From the NCBI RefSeq assembly GCF_017355785.1, contig NZ_JAFEWE010000003.1, forward strand, positions 62,001 to 126,000: DNA of 64,000 nucleotides. Direction: 5' to 3'. The notes under the pieces were generated by a model. That model was not told the DNA's origin. It did not search any database and saw nothing but the letters and a program-made list of their open reading frames with translations. Source of the stretch: Desertivirga arenae. Its GTDB lineage: Bacteria > Bacteroidota > Bacteroidia > Sphingobacteriales > Sphingobacteriaceae. The translations under genes were made by a program, and so were the position numbers. This document shows, in pieces, positions 17,632 to 24,198 of the stretch. Every line of letters begins with the position of its first letter. The stretch's first letter is position 1.

Positions 17632-19422
17632 TTACACTTCGGCCGATTGGCTGATATTGAGTGCTTCTAATTGATTTTGAAAGGTGCTCAATTCAATATC
17701 CATCTGATACTTATCTGCAAAAGGTATCTGTGGAAGCAGACTCCTATAATACGCTATGCCTCTCAATAATTCTGATCTGAAATTTTCCAGTTGTTTAAGC
17801 TTCTTATCGTTTAGATTACCTTCATTATTTTCAATATCTTTTTTAAGATAGTCTACATATAAGTGTAATTCCTTAATGAATAAGTTTGGCCTCTTAATAT
17901 CTTTTAACAAATCAGTTCGACCATAAATGTGTCCAACTAACTCATTTAATGTATAGATATCATTAAAATAAGCGGTGTTTGGTCCAGGGCATATCGCTAC
18001 AGCCCTGTTTTCTCTGGGCTTAAGCATATCATTTTTTAATATGGCTGATGTACACAAGCCCACACACAGACACAATTTCTCCGTGATATTATTGAATCTC
18101 CGCTTATATTCATTCTCTGGCAAGTCTAACTTATCAAGCTCCTCAAGTTTCAATTTCTGGTATTCCCTTGACGCTGTACAGATAGGATCACTGGTAAATT
18201 CAGTATTAGAAACAAGGAACTTTTTTGTACAAGGGCTGCCGGGTCTCCCTTTAGCTATTCGTTCAAGACGAAGTGCCTCTGCTGTACTTTTACTAAAGTT
18301 ATTAAAAGGTACACCTAGGGGAGAGGCTGCACTAATGTAAAAATCTCTTTCTACAGCATTTTTTAGAAGATCCAACGTATCCCTATCCACATTTGTTACT
18401 TCAGGTACCAATAAGAAGGGACTTCCCCATCCAGTTCCATCCAGCTTATAATAGTCTCGCAAAAATTCATCTTCCGCTTTCGTTCCAATGCCACCCTGGA
18501 CAGTGAAGCGAGTGGAAGGTTGCCGTGGTTCGCTTCCAGTTTTGGCTACAATTGCATTTTTGTAAATTCCATAAAGATCCTCTAACATTGAAGGTCTCTT
18601 TTCCTTGAATTCCTCCAAAATAGGTCCGAGTAAATAACCTTCCGTAGCGAACGCATGACCGCCACAGTTCAGGCCTGATTCAATCCTGAATTCATGGACC
18701 CACAGACCTTTTTTTGCAAGGAATTTCGCTTGTATTAAAGCAGACCGAAAATCGCTTACCTTAAGAATTACCTTCTTTTTCGCTTGCTTGTCCGCACTTG
18801 GAAAGAAGTCCTCGAATTCACTTAAATAGGTGTATAACTTAGGATTCATACCTGCAGACAGCACTACTGATGTGTTAAGTTCACTTTCAGCAAAACCACG
18901 TAATGCCGCCAGAGCATCAGTGAACTTATCTCCTAAAGGGAACCCATCTTTTCCGAGATTCACTTTATCAACTTTAACCATGATATTGACCTCTGCATCA
19001 CCTTTCTTTATAAAAGTTCTCAAAAGATTTTGAAGTTCCTCTTTCTTTTGAGGGTCTGTTTCAAACTGCATTTCCTTGTAAACTTGTTGCTCCTGGCAAG
19101 ACTCCGGAAGAAGCTCAAAGTATCGGCAGATATCAGATCCTTCTACGAAAGGCTCTTGCTTCAACTCCGAATGTTGACTTTCGATAAGCATATTCACGAG
19201 GTTGAGGTATGCTTTCACTCGCTTTGCACGGTGATCCATCTCTACTTTTCTGATTGGATGATAGTCGATATTATTTTGTTTCGAATGAAATTCTCTCATT
19301 CGTTCAATCATCTCATCATCTACGATAGATGCAACTGAAGAAATTCCATACCTCGCTACCTTTAGCGGTGTGTCTACGGAAAATCCTAATCCTAAAACGG
19401 GAATATGAAAGCTATGACCCAT
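17632..19422 (-). CDS. Uncharacterised TIM-barrel-like, Cys-containing protein in an oxygen-response operon
   Basis: About 596 residues from the ATG at 19422 (the frame opens at a TTG two codons earlier). I do not recognise a characterised family. Features: an N terminus VLGLGFSVDTPLKVARYGISSVASIVDD; a mid-section with FRIESGLNCGGHAFATEGYLLGPIL and VQGGIGTKAEDEFL, which look like phosphate/FMN-loop segments of nitronate-monooxygenase-like barrels; then GTGWGSPFLLVPE. The C-terminal third has cysteines near 398, 415, 451, 453, 457 and 478 (SPCTKK, DPICTAS, LCLCVGLC, AICPGP), suggesting a metal or Fe-S site. It lies about 50 bp after hemN with no promoter between, so it is probably in the ldhA-hemN operon. 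A redox role is inference. Confidence 0.7.
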   Translation of the reverse strand: MGHSFHIPVLGLGFSVDTPLKVARYGISSVASIVDDEMIERMREFHSKQNNIDYHPIRKVEMDHRAKRVKAYLNLVNMLIESQHSELKQEPFVEGSDICRYFELLPESCQEQQVYKEMQFETDPQKKEELQNLLRTFIKKGDAEVNIMVKVDKVNLGKDGFPLGDKFTDALAALRGFAESELNTSVVLSAGMNPKLYTYLSEFEDFFPSADKQAKKKVILKVSDFRSALIQAKFLAKKGLWVHEFRIESGLNCGGHAFATEGYLLGPILEEFKEKRPSMLEDLYGIYKNAIVAKTGSEPRQPSTRFTVQGGIGTKAEDEFLRDYYKLDGTGWGSPFLLVPEVTNVDRDTLDLLKNAVERDFYISAASPLGVPFNNFSKSTAEALRLERIAKGRPGSPCTKKFLVSNTEFTSDPICTASREYQKLKLEELDKLDLPENEYKRRFNNITEKLCLCVGLCTSAILKNDMLKPRENRAVAICPGPNTAYFNDIYTLNELVGHIYGRTDLLKDIKRPNLFIKELHLYVDYLKKDIENNEGNLNDKKLKQLENFRSELLRGIAYYRSLLPQIPFADKYQMDIELSTFQNQLEALNISQSAEV

Positions 19423-19471
19423 AACCAAGTCGTTAAGTTTTTGTATTAAATATTTTGCTAATTATATAATC

Positions 19472-20818
19472 CTAGATGGCTTTACTAAATAATTGAGATT
19501 CGGGCTTCTTTTGCCACAATCGCATATCAAATGCCATACAAACATTCCTGAGGAATGCTCTTCCGGTTTCAGTTACCTGAACCCGAGATCCCTCAACCTC
19601 AACTAATCCATCATCCTCCAGCGGATTAAGCCTTTGCCTTACTTCTTGAAATTCTTGCTTAAGCCAATCACAATCTGTAAATCCTTTACACATTAGTTGG
19701 AGAATATGCTTCCTGAATACCAGATCCTGATCTGTTAAAATATGCCCTTTTAATAAGGGGAAGGAACCTTTATTAACCATGTCAAGGTAAAGCTCAACAT
19801 GTTTGACATTTTGGGCAAAACCGTACCAACTATCGCTTATAGATGAAACACCCAGGGCTATTGATAACTGGGTATATTGATCTGTATAACCCATGAAATT
19901 GCGGTGGAGGGTATGGTTCTTTGAGGCCTTGTAAAGACTATCAGATTTCAGAGAGAAATGATCCATTCCGATGTCGTAATAGCCTTTATTCAGGAACATT
20001 TCGCGTCCTTTCTCATAAAGGGCCCTTTTCTCGTCATCCTGAGGAAGATCAGCTTCTGTAAATCTTCTTTGACCTGGCTTTACCCAAGGAACGTGAGCGT
20101 AACTGTAAAAGGCAATCCTATCGGGCATTAATGTAATTACCTTCTCTACGGTGTCTTGTATACTTTGTAATTTCTGTAAGGGCAGCCCGTATATCAAATC
20201 ATAATTGACAGAAGTGTAACCGAGGCTGCGGGCATCATCAGTAACTTTTTTTACCTGTTCGTAACTTTGCCTTCTATTAATAATCTCTTGAACCACAGGG
20301 TCGAAGTCTTGGATCCCAAGGCTTATTCTCCTGAACCCTGCCTCGTAAAGAACTTTAAGATGGCTATAACTGGTGTTTGCAGGATGTCCCTCAAAAGAAA
20401 AACTGGTTTCTGAAGCAAGAGTAGCCCCATCCAACAGGCCATTCATCAACATTTCCAGATTTTCAGGGCTGAAAAACGTTGGAGTACCTCCTCCAAGATG
20501 AATTTCCCTGATGTGTGGAGCTTTTCCTATAACTTCCTTGTACATCTGCCATTCTTTAAGAACAGCTTCTATATACGGTCTCTCAACAGCGTGATTCTTA
20601 GTGATACGGGTATTACAACCGCAGTATGTACACAAGCTTTCGCAGTAGGGCAGGTGAATATACAAACTTAAACCTGCAGCAGAACTTTCGTTCATTGCTA
20701 TCCTCACCGTATCGAGCCAACCAGTTACGCTCCACTGCTCCTCCTCCCATAAAGGAACAGTGGGATAACTAGTATATCGTGGTGCTGCTATATTGTATTT
20801 TGATATTAATGTGTTCAT
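19472..20818 (-). CDS. hemN: Oxygen-independent coproporphyrinogen III dehydrogenase
   Basis: 448 residues, a radical-SAM enzyme that decarboxylates coproporphyrinogen III to protoporphyrinogen IX without O2. The 4Fe-4S motif CxxxCxxCxC is at residues 59-68 (YCESLCTYCGC), after YIHLPY, the HemN hallmark that separates it from HemW-type proteins. The SAM-binding GGGTP is in LGGGTPTFFSP. Its ATG overlaps the upstream dehydrogenase stop as TAATG, so the two are co-translated. Its place behind a Crp/Fnr-type site suits low-oxygen induction. Confidence 0.95.
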   Translation of the reverse strand: MNTLISKYNIAAPRYTSYPTVPLWEEEQWSVTGWLDTVRIAMNESSAAGLSLYIHLPYCESLCTYCGCNTRITKNHAVERPYIEAVLKEWQMYKEVIGKAPHIREIHLGGGTPTFFSPENLEMLMNGLLDGATLASETSFSFEGHPANTSYSHLKVLYEAGFRRISLGIQDFDPVVQEIINRRQSYEQVKKVTDDARSLGYTSVNYDLIYGLPLQKLQSIQDTVEKVITLMPDRIAFYSYAHVPWVKPGQRRFTEADLPQDDEKRALYEKGREMFLNKGYYDIGMDHFSLKSDSLYKASKNHTLHRNFMGYTDQYTQLSIALGVSSISDSWYGFAQNVKHVELYLDMVNKGSFPLLKGHILTDQDLVFRKHILQLMCKGFTDCDWLKQEFQEVRQRLNPLEDDGLVEVEGSRVQVTETGRAFLRNVCMAFDMRLWQKKPESQLFSKAI

Positions 20819-21843
20819 TATGCAATAGCTAGATTATTTTCAATACAGGCCTTTCCACAGCAGCAGGCATTTCCTGCACATCTACCGGCTTCCCACAGGT
20901 CCATGCTGGAGATAGTCTTCTCTGCAATGATCTTAAGCGCTTCCTCTGTTAAAAAGGCCTGATGAGGGGTTAATAGTATCCGCTGATTCTGTATCAGAGA
21001 CTGTAGTAAGGAGTCTTGTATAGGTTTTTTCCTATGGTTGAAAAAAAACACGTTCTGTTCGAATTCATAAACATCCATGCCGATCTTACCGATCTTACCT
21101 GTTAGAAGTGCTTCGTAAACGTCCTGGGTATTGAAGACAGCCCCACGGCTGACATTTATCAGCATCACGCCGTCCTTCATTTTCTTTATACCGTCAGCGT
21201 CTACGAGGTGATGAGTATTTTCATTTAAAGGAATATGATAAGAAATAATATCACAGCGGCTATAGAGTTCATCTAAAGATACCTGAGTGGCTCCAATTGT
21301 GCCGCAGTCGTTCTTTTCCTCTATATCATTAACAAGTATTTTTGCTCCAAATCCGCTTAAAATCTTTCCAAGAGCCTTGCCGGTTCCACCAAAGCCAACT
21401 ATACCAACAGTTTTACCTTTGATAGTATTACCGACAAGATTATTGAGACTAAAATCATGATCATGCATTTGATTTTGAGACACAAGAATATTACGGGAAA
21501 GTGCGAGGATCAGAGTAATGGCATGTTCGCCTACTGACTCAGGGGAATAGGAGGGAACGTTAGCTATCTTTAAGCCTAGTCGGACGGCTTCAGGAAGATC
21601 TATATGATCCGTGCCCGTTGAACGGGTAGCTATATACTTAACGCCTCTTCTTTTAAGCTCTTGAAGAATAGAGGCCGGCAAACTATCTCCGGGAAACACT
21701 AATACAGCATCTTTTCCGTCTGCGTAAGCTGCTGTATCAGTTGTTAACCTATTGGATATTAAAGTTATATCGTGCTTTTTCTGATTAGCCTTAATTAAAA
21801 GCTCTTTTTCACAGTTTTTTATGCTGTATGCGACCGCTTTCAT
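20818..21843 (-). CDS. ldhA: D-lactate dehydrogenase / 2-hydroxyacid dehydrogenase with Cys-rich tail
   Basis: 341 residues from ATG 21843. An ATG 7 codons upstream lies inside the promoter and is rejected. NAD-binding GxGxxG-type loop in VGIVGFGGTGKALG, catalytic Arg region in INVSRGAVFNT, and catalytic His in TPHQAFLTEEA are present. The overall sequence resembles fermentative D-LDH (LdhA), which reduces pyruvate to D-lactate. Odd feature: the last 20 residues contain five cysteines (RCAGNACCCGKACIEN), including CCC, unlike the usual single Cys near the end of LdhA. First gene of a three-gene operon with hemN and the 598-codon gene. Confidence 0.88.
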   Translation of the reverse strand: MKAVAYSIKNCEKELLIKANQKKHDITLISNRLTTDTAAYADGKDAVLVFPGDSLPASILQELKRRGVKYIATRSTGTDHIDLPEAVRLGLKIANVPSYSPESVGEHAITLILALSRNILVSQNQMHDHDFSLNNLVGNTIKGKTVGIVGFGGTGKALGKILSGFGAKILVNDIEEKNDCGTIGATQVSLDELYSRCDIISYHIPLNENTHHLVDADGIKKMKDGVMLINVSRGAVFNTQDVYEALLTGKIGKIGMDVYEFEQNVFFFNHRKKPIQDSLLQSLIQNQRILLTPHQAFLTEEALKIIAEKTISSMDLWEAGRCAGNACCCGKACIENNLAIA

Positions 21844-21861
21844 TCCGTTTCTGTTTAGAAA

Positions 21862-21869
21862 CAAAGGTA
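21862..21869 (-). promoter_or_regulatory. -7 promoter element of ldhA-hemN operon (TACCTTTG)
   Basis: Plus-strand CAAAGGTA reads TACCTTTG. No TTG-type -33 element is found 17-24 nt further upstream, which suggests dependence on an activator. Confidence 0.55.
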
Positions 21870-21910
21870 TCCAGACGGGCTGCTTTAATGCGTGAGGCTA
21901 ATCAAAGTAA

Positions 21911-21930
21911 AAAGTGATATTTATCACTTT
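21911..21930. promoter_or_regulatory. Crp/Fnr-type palindrome upstream of ldhA
   Basis: AAAGTGATA-TT-TATCACTTT is a perfect 9-bp inverted repeat, with core GTGAT-N4-ATCAC, the architecture of Crp/Fnr superfamily sites. Its centre (21920.5) is about 60 nt upstream of the transcription start predicted from the -7 element, the class I activator position. The gene directly upstream encodes a Crp/Fnr-domain response regulator, the natural candidate binder. The core is one base per half-site away from the FNR consensus TTGAT. Confidence 0.7.
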
Positions 21931-21937
21931 ATTACCT

Positions 21938-23005
21938 TTATTGTTTGACGCGTTTCAGTTTCTCAATGGATAGAACTTTAATTGTATTGCCTTCTTTTAC
22001 AATTAACCGCTCCTCTTTAAAGTCTGATAATGTGCGACTTATGGTCTCCGTAGCAGTTCCTACCATAGCCGCGAGGTCGTCACGGGATACTTTAATCTCA
22101 CAGGAGTCTGAAGGCTCCTTCATGAACTTATCAGAAAGAATTATCAATGCATCAGCAACACGTTTACGAACCGAATTGTAGGCCAGCTTAAGCAACTGCT
22201 CCTGTTTTTCAACAATATTATCAGATAGCAGCTCTATAAATCTTTTTGCAATACCTATATCTTTAAACAACAACGTATTAAATTCGCTCTTTCTAATCAG
22301 GTGAAGCTCAGAATCATCCATGCTCTCTGCATTTTCAGTATAGGATTTGTTTAAAAGCACTGCTTCATATCCAAAAAAGTCTCCCTCTGAATGCATGCCG
22401 GTAATGATCTCCCGGCCGTCCTCGTAAATTAAATAGGTTCTGATCTTTCCCTTTTTAACAAAGTAAACATTCTGCGGTGTATCACCGTCCATGTAAATGT
22501 TCTGCTTCTTTTTAAATGATCTTAACCTTCCGCTTTCAGACAACTCCGTCAGCAACTTAGCAGAGCGAGCTTCATCTAACAAGTTTTCTAAACTAGCAGC
22601 TGTTGCTGAACTCTTCAGGACGCGTTCCCTTTTAGAAAGCCTGCTTTCTACAGCATTTATAAGTTCCATATCGTCAAAGGGCTTAGTCAGGTAATCATCT
22701 GCCCCCATTTCCATACCTTTTCGCATATCAGCCCGTTCTGCTTTCGCAGTTAAAAAAATGAAAGGGATGTTTGCTGTATTTTCGTTTTTGCTTAAAAGGT
22801 ATAAAACGCCGTAGCCATCCAACTCTGGCATCATTATATCACAGAGGATAATGTCTGGAAGTTGTGCTTGAGCAAGTTCAACTCCTTTTTTTCCGTTCTC
22901 TGCGGTGTAAACACTAAAATTAGCAAGCTCCAAAATCTCGGCGGTGCTTTCACGGATATCTTGATTATCCTCAATTATCAGTACAGTTTTTTTCTGCTGG
23001 TTCAT
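21938..23005 (-). CDS. Response regulator: receiver domain fused to Crp/Fnr transcription factor
   Basis: 355 residues. The N-terminal receiver (about 5-125) has the acidic pair ED at 12-13, phospho-acceptor Asp56 in LCDIMMP, Thr86 and Lys108 in YLTKPF. After a linker comes a cNMP-binding-type beta-roll (about 155-265, with RSFKKKQNIYMDGD and GDFFGYEAVLLN) and a Crp-family winged helix (about 275-350). The recognition helix TATETISRTL keeps the E-x2-S-R pattern of FNR. No N-terminal Fe-S cysteines are seen, so sensing probably comes through phosphorylation by the partner kinase. Its ATG overlaps the kinase stop by 4 bp. It combines the FixJ and FixK roles in one protein (inference). Confidence 0.9.
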   Translation of the reverse strand: MNQQKKTVLIIEDNQDIRESTAEILELANFSVYTAENGKKGVELAQAQLPDIILCDIMMPELDGYGVLYLLSKNENTANIPFIFLTAKAERADMRKGMEMGADDYLTKPFDDMELINAVESRLSKRERVLKSSATAASLENLLDEARSAKLLTELSESGRLRSFKKKQNIYMDGDTPQNVYFVKKGKIRTYLIYEDGREIITGMHSEGDFFGYEAVLLNKSYTENAESMDDSELHLIRKSEFNTLLFKDIGIAKRFIELLSDNIVEKQEQLLKLAYNSVRKRVADALIILSDKFMKEPSDSCEIKVSRDDLAAMVGTATETISRTLSDFKEERLIVKEGNTIKVLSIEKLKRVKQ

Positions 23006-24198
23006 CCTTTTTTAAAGATTAAAGCAATGGTAGTGCCTTCATTTTGCGCACTTTGGCAAATAACGTCACCACCCATTAGTTCGACGTATCGTTTAACAAT
23101 ATTTAGTCCCAACCCTGTTCCCGGGATATTTCCGGTGTTATGAGCTCTAAAAAACGGTTCAAATAAGTTCTTCTGTTCATCTTCCGGAATTCCAATTCCA
23201 TTATCCTTCACAGAGATACACACCTCGGAATCTGAAACCTCCGTATTAAACTCTATAAAAGTATTCTCTCCTGAATACTTTATTGCATTCGATACAAGGT
23301 TAATAATTGAATTCCTAAGTAAAGAAGGGTCAAGATATACTTCACCTGTTTCGCCTGTGTGCTGGTAAAAAATGTGCTGATTTTGTTTTGCAATTAATTG
23401 CATCTCTTCAATAATACCCTCTGAAAACTTAACCAGGTCAAAGTGCTGAAACTGAACTTCAGTCCTTCCAGCTTCCAGTTTCTCCAAAGACAAGAAATCG
23501 TTAAGTATTCCGGTAAGATGGCCTACCGAATTTTTGATCTTGGAAGTGTGTTTAAGGATGTTTCCCTCATCTTGTTTCTGAAGATACTTTTCTATCAATG
23601 AGGCAGAAAGCTGTACCGAGCTTAAGGGTGTGCGGAACTCATGAGAGGCCATCGAAACGAATCGCGTCTTCAACTGATTCAGTTCTTTCTCCTTTTCAAG
23701 AGAGTGACTGGCTTCATCTCGGGCTATCTCGAGCTCTGAAATTAACTCCCTTAAATCGTGAGTTCGCTCTTTTATTGTTTCTTCGAGTTTTTCGGTGTAT
23801 TTGCGAAGATTCTCTTCTGCCGCTTTTTCCTTCGAAAGGTCGTGTATAAAACCTGTGAATATTTTTCGGTTTTCGTACTCCACCTCACTAACAGCCAGGC
23901 GGAAAGGAAATGTTGTTTTATCCTTTCTCAAGCCTTTAACTTCACGCCCGATACCAATAATACGTCTTTCGCCTGTAGACTGGTACCTATGTATGTACCC
24001 ATCGTGTGCGCTTTTATCGGGTTCAGGCATTAATACAGAAATATTTCTTCCAACCAACTCATCTTCCTTCTCATACCCAAATAAGCGTAATGCCGCCGGA
24101 TTCATACTTTCAATTAACCCACCAGAGTCAATGGTAATTATGCCGTCAATAGCAGTACTTATAATGGCATGTAGAAGATTTAATTTATCTATGCTCAT
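23002..24198 (-). CDS. fixL: FixL-like oxygen-sensing PAS histidine kinase
   Basis: 398 residues, no membrane helix. The PAS domain (about 5-125) aligns closely with the haem PAS of rhizobial FixL. His65 in HDGY corresponds to the haem-ligating His200 of Bradyrhizobium FixL, and Arg85 in IIGIGR to the O2-sensing Arg220. Ile80, Leu101 and Val103 match the haem-pocket residues 215, 236 and 238. A coiled-coil linker (about 122-175) leads to the HisKA domain with His186 (SHEFRTPLSS) and a HATPase with NLVSNAIKYSG and GTGLGLNIV. It should autophosphorylate when haem is deoxy and pass the phosphate to the overlapping receiver-Crp/Fnr gene. The symbol is by homology; nif/cbb3 linkage is not seen here. 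Confidence 0.88.
   Translation of the reverse strand: MSIDKLNLLHAIISTAIDGIITIDSGGLIESMNPAALRLFGYEKEDELVGRNISVLMPEPDKSAHDGYIHRYQSTGERRIIGIGREVKGLRKDKTTFPFRLAVSEVEYENRKIFTGFIHDLSKEKAAEENLRKYTEKLEETIKERTHDLRELISELEIARDEASHSLEKEKELNQLKTRFVSMASHEFRTPLSSVQLSASLIEKYLQKQDEGNILKHTSKIKNSVGHLTGILNDFLSLEKLEAGRTEVQFQHFDLVKFSEGIIEEMQLIAKQNQHIFYQHTGETGEVYLDPSLLRNSIINLVSNAIKYSGENTFIEFNTEVSDSEVCISVKDNGIGIPEDEQKNLFEPFFRAHNTGNIPGTGLGLNIVKRYVELMGGDVICQSAQNEGTTIALIFKKG

Follow-up and report, generated by a model that had tools for sequence, protein, structure and literature searches.

The window, which is the whole 64-kb stretch of DNA analysed here, encodes a FixL-type PAS histidine kinase next to a response regulator that carries a Crp/Fnr-type domain behind its receiver. 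To judge by sequence and by analogy with characterized systems, this pair probably acts as the bacterium's low-oxygen switch (a rough probability of 0.78), in which the fused regulator would accomplish the work of both FixJ and FixK in a single protein. The source genome comprises 6.19 Mb in 43 contigs with a completeness of 99.8%, and the locus consists of the following features:

23002–24198, minus strand: FixL-type PAS histidine kinase, 398 aa, ATG start (ORF list, Pfam)
21938–23005, minus strand: response regulator composed of a receiver and a Crp/Fnr-type domain, 355 aa, ATG start (ORF list, Pfam)
23002–23005, minus strand: ATGA start/stop overlap of 4 bp between the kinase and regulator genes (ORF list)
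21910–21931, no strand: presumed operator, palindromic, AAAAGTGATATTTATCACTTTA (matrix score, core pattern)
21914–21927: operator core GTGAT-N4-ATCAC
20818–21864, minus strand: D-lactate-dehydrogenase-like gene (D-2-hydroxyacid dehydrogenase), full length (similarity)
19472–20818, minus strand: hemN, oxygen-independent coproporphyrinogen III oxidase (TIGR00538, 411 bits, cut-off 325)
17632–19428, minus strand: 598-aa protein, kept in the same gene cluster of relatives (conservation)

The ORF coordinates, the ATGA tetranucleotide and the Pfam domains agree with the preliminary description of this locus as a kinase gene that overlaps by 4 bp with a gene for a receiver-Crp/Fnr fusion. PAS, HisKA and HATPase_c in the kinase as well as Response_reg, cNMP_binding and HTH_Crp_2 in the regulator all exceed their gathering scores, and the marks of two-component signalling, comprising the HisKA histidine, the HATPase and the receiver aspartate and lysine, are all present in the pair. 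Regarding the neighbours, the ldh-like gene, for which the ATG at 21843 is the likely start, stays below every NCBIfam cut-off, and the 598-aa protein has neither a Pfam or NCBIfam family nor a relative in the PDB.

The PAS domain of the kinase extends approximately from residue 9 to 122, and His186 is the phospho-acceptor. Searched alone, the PAS part finds FixL chains as its best PDB match (E 4.1e-32), the next haem PAS being that of E. coli DOS/DosP (E 4e-15). A chance PAS match is ruled out by comparison with the runner-up within the bacterium's own genome, which reaches only 35% identity at E 5e-11. His65, Ile80, Arg85 and Leu101 are identical to the aligned residues of the FixL chains 1dp6 and 1d06, and Val103 matches 1d06 (1dp6 has Ile there), which places all five pocket residues that had been named beforehand on FixL columns. 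We take His65 and Arg85 to be His200 and Arg220 in the numbering of Bradyrhizobium FixL. The residue set of a FixL haem PAS, namely the proximal His, the distal Arg and the hydrophobic pocket, is present in the kinase; His65, Ile80, Arg85 and Leu101 do not vary among 26 aligned FixL-type kinases, at least 90% of which have Val103. The pocket being kept together in this manner, in addition to the close match to FixL, bears out the earlier assignment of a FixL-type PAS.

This assignment rests on the PAS domain as a whole, since sister kinases with another PAS likewise feature His at column 65 (31/31) and partly Arg at column 85 (13/31); these two residues alone are no proof of haem, and the notion that they suffice is rejected. 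The kinase had been described beforehand as soluble; in its predicted model (mean pLDDT 84.8, pTM 0.52), the sole helix ahead of the PAS, which starts at residue 9, comprises residues 3–14. The fusion model attains a mean pLDDT of 89.1 and a pTM of 0.58, and in view of both pTM values the domain arrangement is trusted in neither model. The 50 Foldseek matches listed for the kinase model consist of full kinases, with HK853 and LOV-FixL chimeras among them, but do not contain any entry of a FixL PAS; the identity of the PAS is therefore derived from sequence. A FixL-type kinase of Dyadobacter sp. CECT 9623 (L088, 9986–11176) has the haem ligand replaced by Gln, bears Phe at position 103 and, as far as these residues tell, is a natural ligand-less variant; its locus still contains the fusion, the ldh-like gene and an operator-type site.

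As regards the regulator, the receiver with Asp56 and Lys108 had been described as joined to a Crp/Fnr part, which is confirmed by the order of its Pfam domains and by the invariance of both residues in 43 aligned receiver-Crp proteins. The recognition helix reads ETISR and is identical to that of A. fischeri FNR, the fusion has two cysteines, none of them N-terminal, and a structure search with its model returned Crp and FNR chains. In Crp, cAMP is contacted by a Glu and an Arg in the phosphate cassette; the stretch GDFFGYEAVLLNKSYTENAES of the fusion contains no Arg. Two more receiver-Crp proteins are encoded in the same genome (L003, 8077–9144, and L004, 8348–9466, both on the minus strand), which show 46% and 42% identity and the helix ESLIR; one of them overlaps a kinase gene tail to tail, and one adjoins a universal-stress-protein-like gene (labelled by eye).

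The two proteins are not members of rhizobial FixL, FixJ, Caulobacter FixK or FNR as such. For rhizobial FixL, the equivalog model NF041777 of NCBIfam yields 180.7 bits, with 850 needed; the FixJ model NF006900 reaches 70.3 of 255 bits and covers the receiver part only, the output of the fusion being HTH_Crp_2. The output domain of FixJ is of the NarL type. Scores for Caulobacter FixK (NF050806, 95.4 vs 300 bits), Fnr (83.2 vs 228) and Crp (79.1 vs 266) also remain below the cut-offs, and FNR as such is further rejected because the fusion has no N-terminal cysteine cluster.

According to PMC4999443, binding of O2 to the FixL haem inactivates the kinase in Alphaproteobacteria, and the FixK regulon includes cco, hemN and fixLJ. 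With the FixL-FixJ-FixK cascade of rhizobia and Caulobacter, the present pair shares the FixL-type haem PAS as well as the predicted targets cco and hemN (PMC4999443); unlike in that cascade, the receiver itself bears the Crp-type domain, and there is neither a FixJ nor a separate FixK. In Rhizobium leguminosarum, as reported in PMC7888657, hFixL acts via FxkR, which binds the K-box and induces fixK, the pathway ending at fixNOQP. That system resembles the present one in that a FixL variant works through a regulator other than FixJ, yet FxkR still needs the induction of fixK, whereas the regulator in the window is of the Crp type itself. Regulators of the FixK2/FNR type have in common with the fusion the Crp/Fnr domain, the ETISR helix and the TGAT-N4-ATCA core of its presumed site, FixK binding the anaerobox TTGAT-N4-ATCAA (PMC7888657). 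They differ from it in the N-terminal receiver and the missing N-terminal cysteine cluster of the fusion, and in the outer base, which is T in their sites and G or C in the presumed ones; in the window, the FixK-like core is flanked by G.

The distribution of the pair was examined in 60 genomes of relatives, including its own, 37 of which belong to the family of the window. A PAS match with 53% identity or more occurs in 21 of the 60, and 20 of these are family members; in all 20, a receiver plus Crp sequence directly follows the kinase. A fusion at E 1e-80 or better is present in 20/20 FixL-bearing but 1/17 FixL-less family genomes; for all such comparisons in this work, Fisher p-values overstate the significance, given that the sequences are mutually related. 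In the sole FixL-less carrier (G030), the PAS of the partner kinase is not FixL-type and the helix is ESLIR. The pairing of kinase and receiver is supported by this co-occurrence together with the 4-bp overlap and the adjacency. Outside the family, G037 harbours kinase and fusion on one contig in non-adjacent positions. In genome G015 there is a second FixL-like kinase (L033), which is not followed by a receiver within the stretch examined.

Across the phylum, a PAS match at 1e-18 was found in 85 of 395 genomes, and 13 of the 30 loci listed from this search (L040, L042, L046, L048–L055, L057, L058) have no receiver within 1.5 kb on either side of the PAS kinase. The 80 named loci are the best 80 of 587 candidates, a sample which is therefore biased towards close relatives, and comprise 48 FixL-type kinases, 31 with another PAS and one without a PAS match. 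Within this sample, the fusion is the next gene within 158 bp in 44 of the 48 FixL-type kinases, His65 is present in 47, and the closest kinase core and receiver, at 80% identity, belong to Daejeonella lutea. The 48 derive from Sphingobacteriaceae (Daejeonella, Pedobacter, Mucilaginibacter, Sphingobacterium and others), Flavobacterium, Dyadobacter, Saprospiraceae, Lewinella, a Cytophagaceae MAG and other MAGs. The FixL-type kinase with its fusion partner is a conserved system of Bacteroidota and not unique to the window. In the open-licence literature, no earlier description of the pair was found.

Behind the fusion, the window contains the ldh-like gene and then hemN. Of 27 named loci of the Sphingobacteriaceae type (L059–L084, L113), 25 feature an ldh-like gene behind the fusion; this gene is full length (338–354 aa) in 10 and short (118–199 aa) in 15 of them, and hemN lies within 3 kb in 19 of the 27. 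The short genes (L060–L068, L071, L072, L075, L077, L080, L083) match only about the first 100 residues of the dehydrogenase. A second, short ldh-like copy is present in the genome of the window (L185, 2961–3425, plus strand), preceded by a site with a score of 19.9.

The ccoN gene is located at most 24 kb from the kinase in 12 of the 15 family FixL genomes with a close ccoN match, the exceptions being G019, G027 and the genome of the window. In a congeneric genome (L187), 16 kb of one strand encompass a DsbD-like gene, fixH, ccoG, ccoP, ccoNO, a ccoI-like gene, the gene of a 598-aa-type protein, hemN, ldh, the fusion and the kinase. The cco genes of the window's own genome reside on another contig (L184), where ccoN, ccoO and ccoG score above the respective NCBIfam cut-offs and ccoP below, and where FixH and DsbD_2 were found by Pfam. 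The label ccoI is based on similarity and position, the protein passing no cut-off but the generic one for P-type ATPases.

In the intergenic stretch that separates the fusion from ldh, the window contains a TGAY-N4-RTCA core, as do 19 of the 25 named loci whose fusion is followed by an ldh-like gene. A symmetric matrix trained on 22 sites before ldh-like genes assigns 22.0 to the site of the window, no other site in the 64 kb reaching 14; shuffled sequences score at least 16 at a rate of 0.0007. With this threshold of 16, the upstream regions of 37 loci were counted; the 28 genes that diverge from a labelled one were kept apart from 289 others. Sites were detected before ccoN in 14 of 19 cases vs 15 of the 289 other genes, before ldh in 26/33 (training genes included), before the kinase gene in 15/29, before the gene of the 598-aa-type protein in 9/11, before hemN in 1/5 and before the divergent genes in 18/28; in the same 37 loci none was found before ccoI (0/9), ccoP (0/20), ccoG (0/9), the fusion (0/5) or USP (0/2). 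Eight unlabelled positives that were scanned comprise two universal stress proteins, a zinc alcohol dehydrogenase, a MOSC protein, YceI, a methyltransferase and two proteins without a family. An earlier count of the bare core, made before the matrix and on a larger set of loci, had given a background of 88/406, with 27/34 for ldh and 10/20 for ccoN.

The position of the site before ccoN is likewise related to the presence of FixL. In 14 of the 15 family FixL genomes the best site lies 103–127 nt before the F.YDN codons (scores of 13.3 to 26.1), the 15th being G029 with 191 nt, as compared with 253–286 nt in the five FixL-less family genomes, where four sites are ATGAT-type and one is weak; a proximal site is thus present in 14/15 vs 0/5. 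Outside the family, FixL-bearing G037 has no good site before ccoN. In the genome of the window, the ccoI site scores only 11.2 and no matrix site precedes the kinase gene. Scans of this genome gave 41 sites vs 34 in the control for RTGATN4ATCAY, 18 vs 5 for AASTGAYN4RTCASTT with one mismatch, and 5 vs 2 for AANTGAYN4RTCANTT. Fifteen of the 18 were located, eight of them inside genes; of seven further GTGAT-N4-ATCAC sites, five lie inside ORFs and one scores 19.5.

Instead of the fusion, an FNR-like regulator or some further member of the Crp family might bind the palindromes ahead of ldh-hemN and ccoN, with the pair being FixL-like but the regulon of the fusion lying elsewhere, a scenario we regard as unlikely yet to be reckoned with. 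It is favoured by two Crp/Fnr proteins of the same genome (L204, 1438–2169, minus strand, and L208) with N-terminal cysteine clusters, by which FNR-like O2 sensors may act beside FixL, and by several other Crp-family proteins with ETLSR or ESLSR helices. On the other hand, an FNR-like relative at E 1e-40, a cut-off below which weaker FNR proteins could still exist, is found in 8 of the 15 family FixL genomes with ccoN, and the proximal site is kept in 6 of the 7 without one; conversely, in FixL-less G006 two FNR-like matches come without a proximal site. The ccoN site hence follows FixL and the fusion rather than the FNR-like proteins, and the location of the ldh site directly behind the fusion gene in most named loci speaks in the same direction. 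Alternatively, the PAS could have the fold and residues of FixL but bind no haem, or its haem could sense NO, CO or the redox state. The ligand His common to the non-FixL PAS of sister kinases, the Dyadobacter operon kept despite its Gln, and kinases of the same type with another PAS near ccoN are in line with this rather improbable reading; it is countered by Ile80, Arg85, Leu101 and Val103 being kept together with His65 and by the O2-linked nature of the associated genes. That the main partner of the kinase is a different response regulator, the fusion being fed by another kinase, is very improbable: the genome does have three receiver-Crp proteins and many receivers, but the gene overlap, the adjacency throughout the family and the joint conservation of kinase core and receiver (both used in the tree) oppose it. 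In sum, the low-oxygen switch has against it the ligand His and Arg in non-FixL PAS domains, the other Crp proteins with helices of the ETxSR type, other-PAS kinases near ccoN (L194, L195), the loose-pattern count in its own genome, hardly above the control (41 vs 34), and, in that genome, the location of ccoN on another contig, the low-scoring ccoI site and the kinase gene without a site.

The 31 kinases with another PAS resemble the FixL-type ones in their kinase core and mostly share their fusion partner, but lack the FixL distal pocket, and the helices of the fusions paired with them (L105–L138) are mostly ESLIR or ETVIR. In both genomes checked, L194 and L195, ccoN lies near such kinases; a link to respiration is therefore not confined to the FixL class. 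In a tree calculated from kinase core and receiver together (74 rows), PAS class requires 5 changes vs a shuffled mean of 23; as the starred branches force only one change, it is suggested, and no more, that the PAS sensor was swapped. At helix position 323, 35 rows have Ser, 37 have Ile and one has Val, the residue being missing in one; the Ser rows form one well-supported side of the tree and are all FixL-type (Sphingobacteriaceae, Flavobacterium, Dyadobacter, MAGs), and the FixL-type pairs of Saprospiraceae have Ile. A 7-kb contig labelled as a Halobacteriovoraceae MAG (L131, Bdellovibrionota) contains a pair with another PAS, owing to either misbinning or transfer. Tentatively, and at somewhat less than even odds, Bacteroidota would possess a receiver-Crp family with exchangeable sensor PAS, one branch of which gained the FixL haem PAS along with a helix and an operator of the FNR-like kind; independently of the cascade in rhizobia, this branch would thus have built up a one-step O2 circuit that serves cbb3 oxidase and the anaerobic synthesis of haem.

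Returning to the low-oxygen switch, O2 on the PAS haem would keep the kinase off, by analogy with FixL. As O2 falls, the kinase would autophosphorylate at His186 and pass the phosphate to Asp56 of the fusion, which in its phosphorylated form would bind TGAY-N4-RTCA palindromes. The fusion would thereby activate ldh-hemN in the window and, at other places in the genome, ccoN and probably the ccoI-like gene, as well as its own kinase gene in many relatives, so that the genes for cbb3 oxidase and HemN would be switched on directly. What was observed directly is the order of the genes, their domains, the pocket residues, the conservation of the pair and where the operator-type sites lie, whereas haem binding, the effect of O2, phosphotransfer, DNA binding, and activation instead of repression are each steps that we infer. 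Since presumed operators precede FixK-type targets (ccoN, ldh-hemN), no separate FixK step would be needed; with synteny and co-occurrence pointing the same way, the merged FixJ/FixK role that the preliminary description had put forward is supported.

The pair represents a conserved variant of FixL signalling which is new as far as the open-licence literature goes, where no description of a FixL pathway in Pedobacter, Mucilaginibacter, Flavobacterium and relatives was found. For these bacteria it provides a concrete and testable low-O2 regulator. Moreover, one-step and two-step O2 circuits built on the same kind of sensor become comparable, and the natural exceptions, i.e. the Dyadobacter kinase with Gln and the pair with another PAS, permit clean tests of what the PAS domain contributes.
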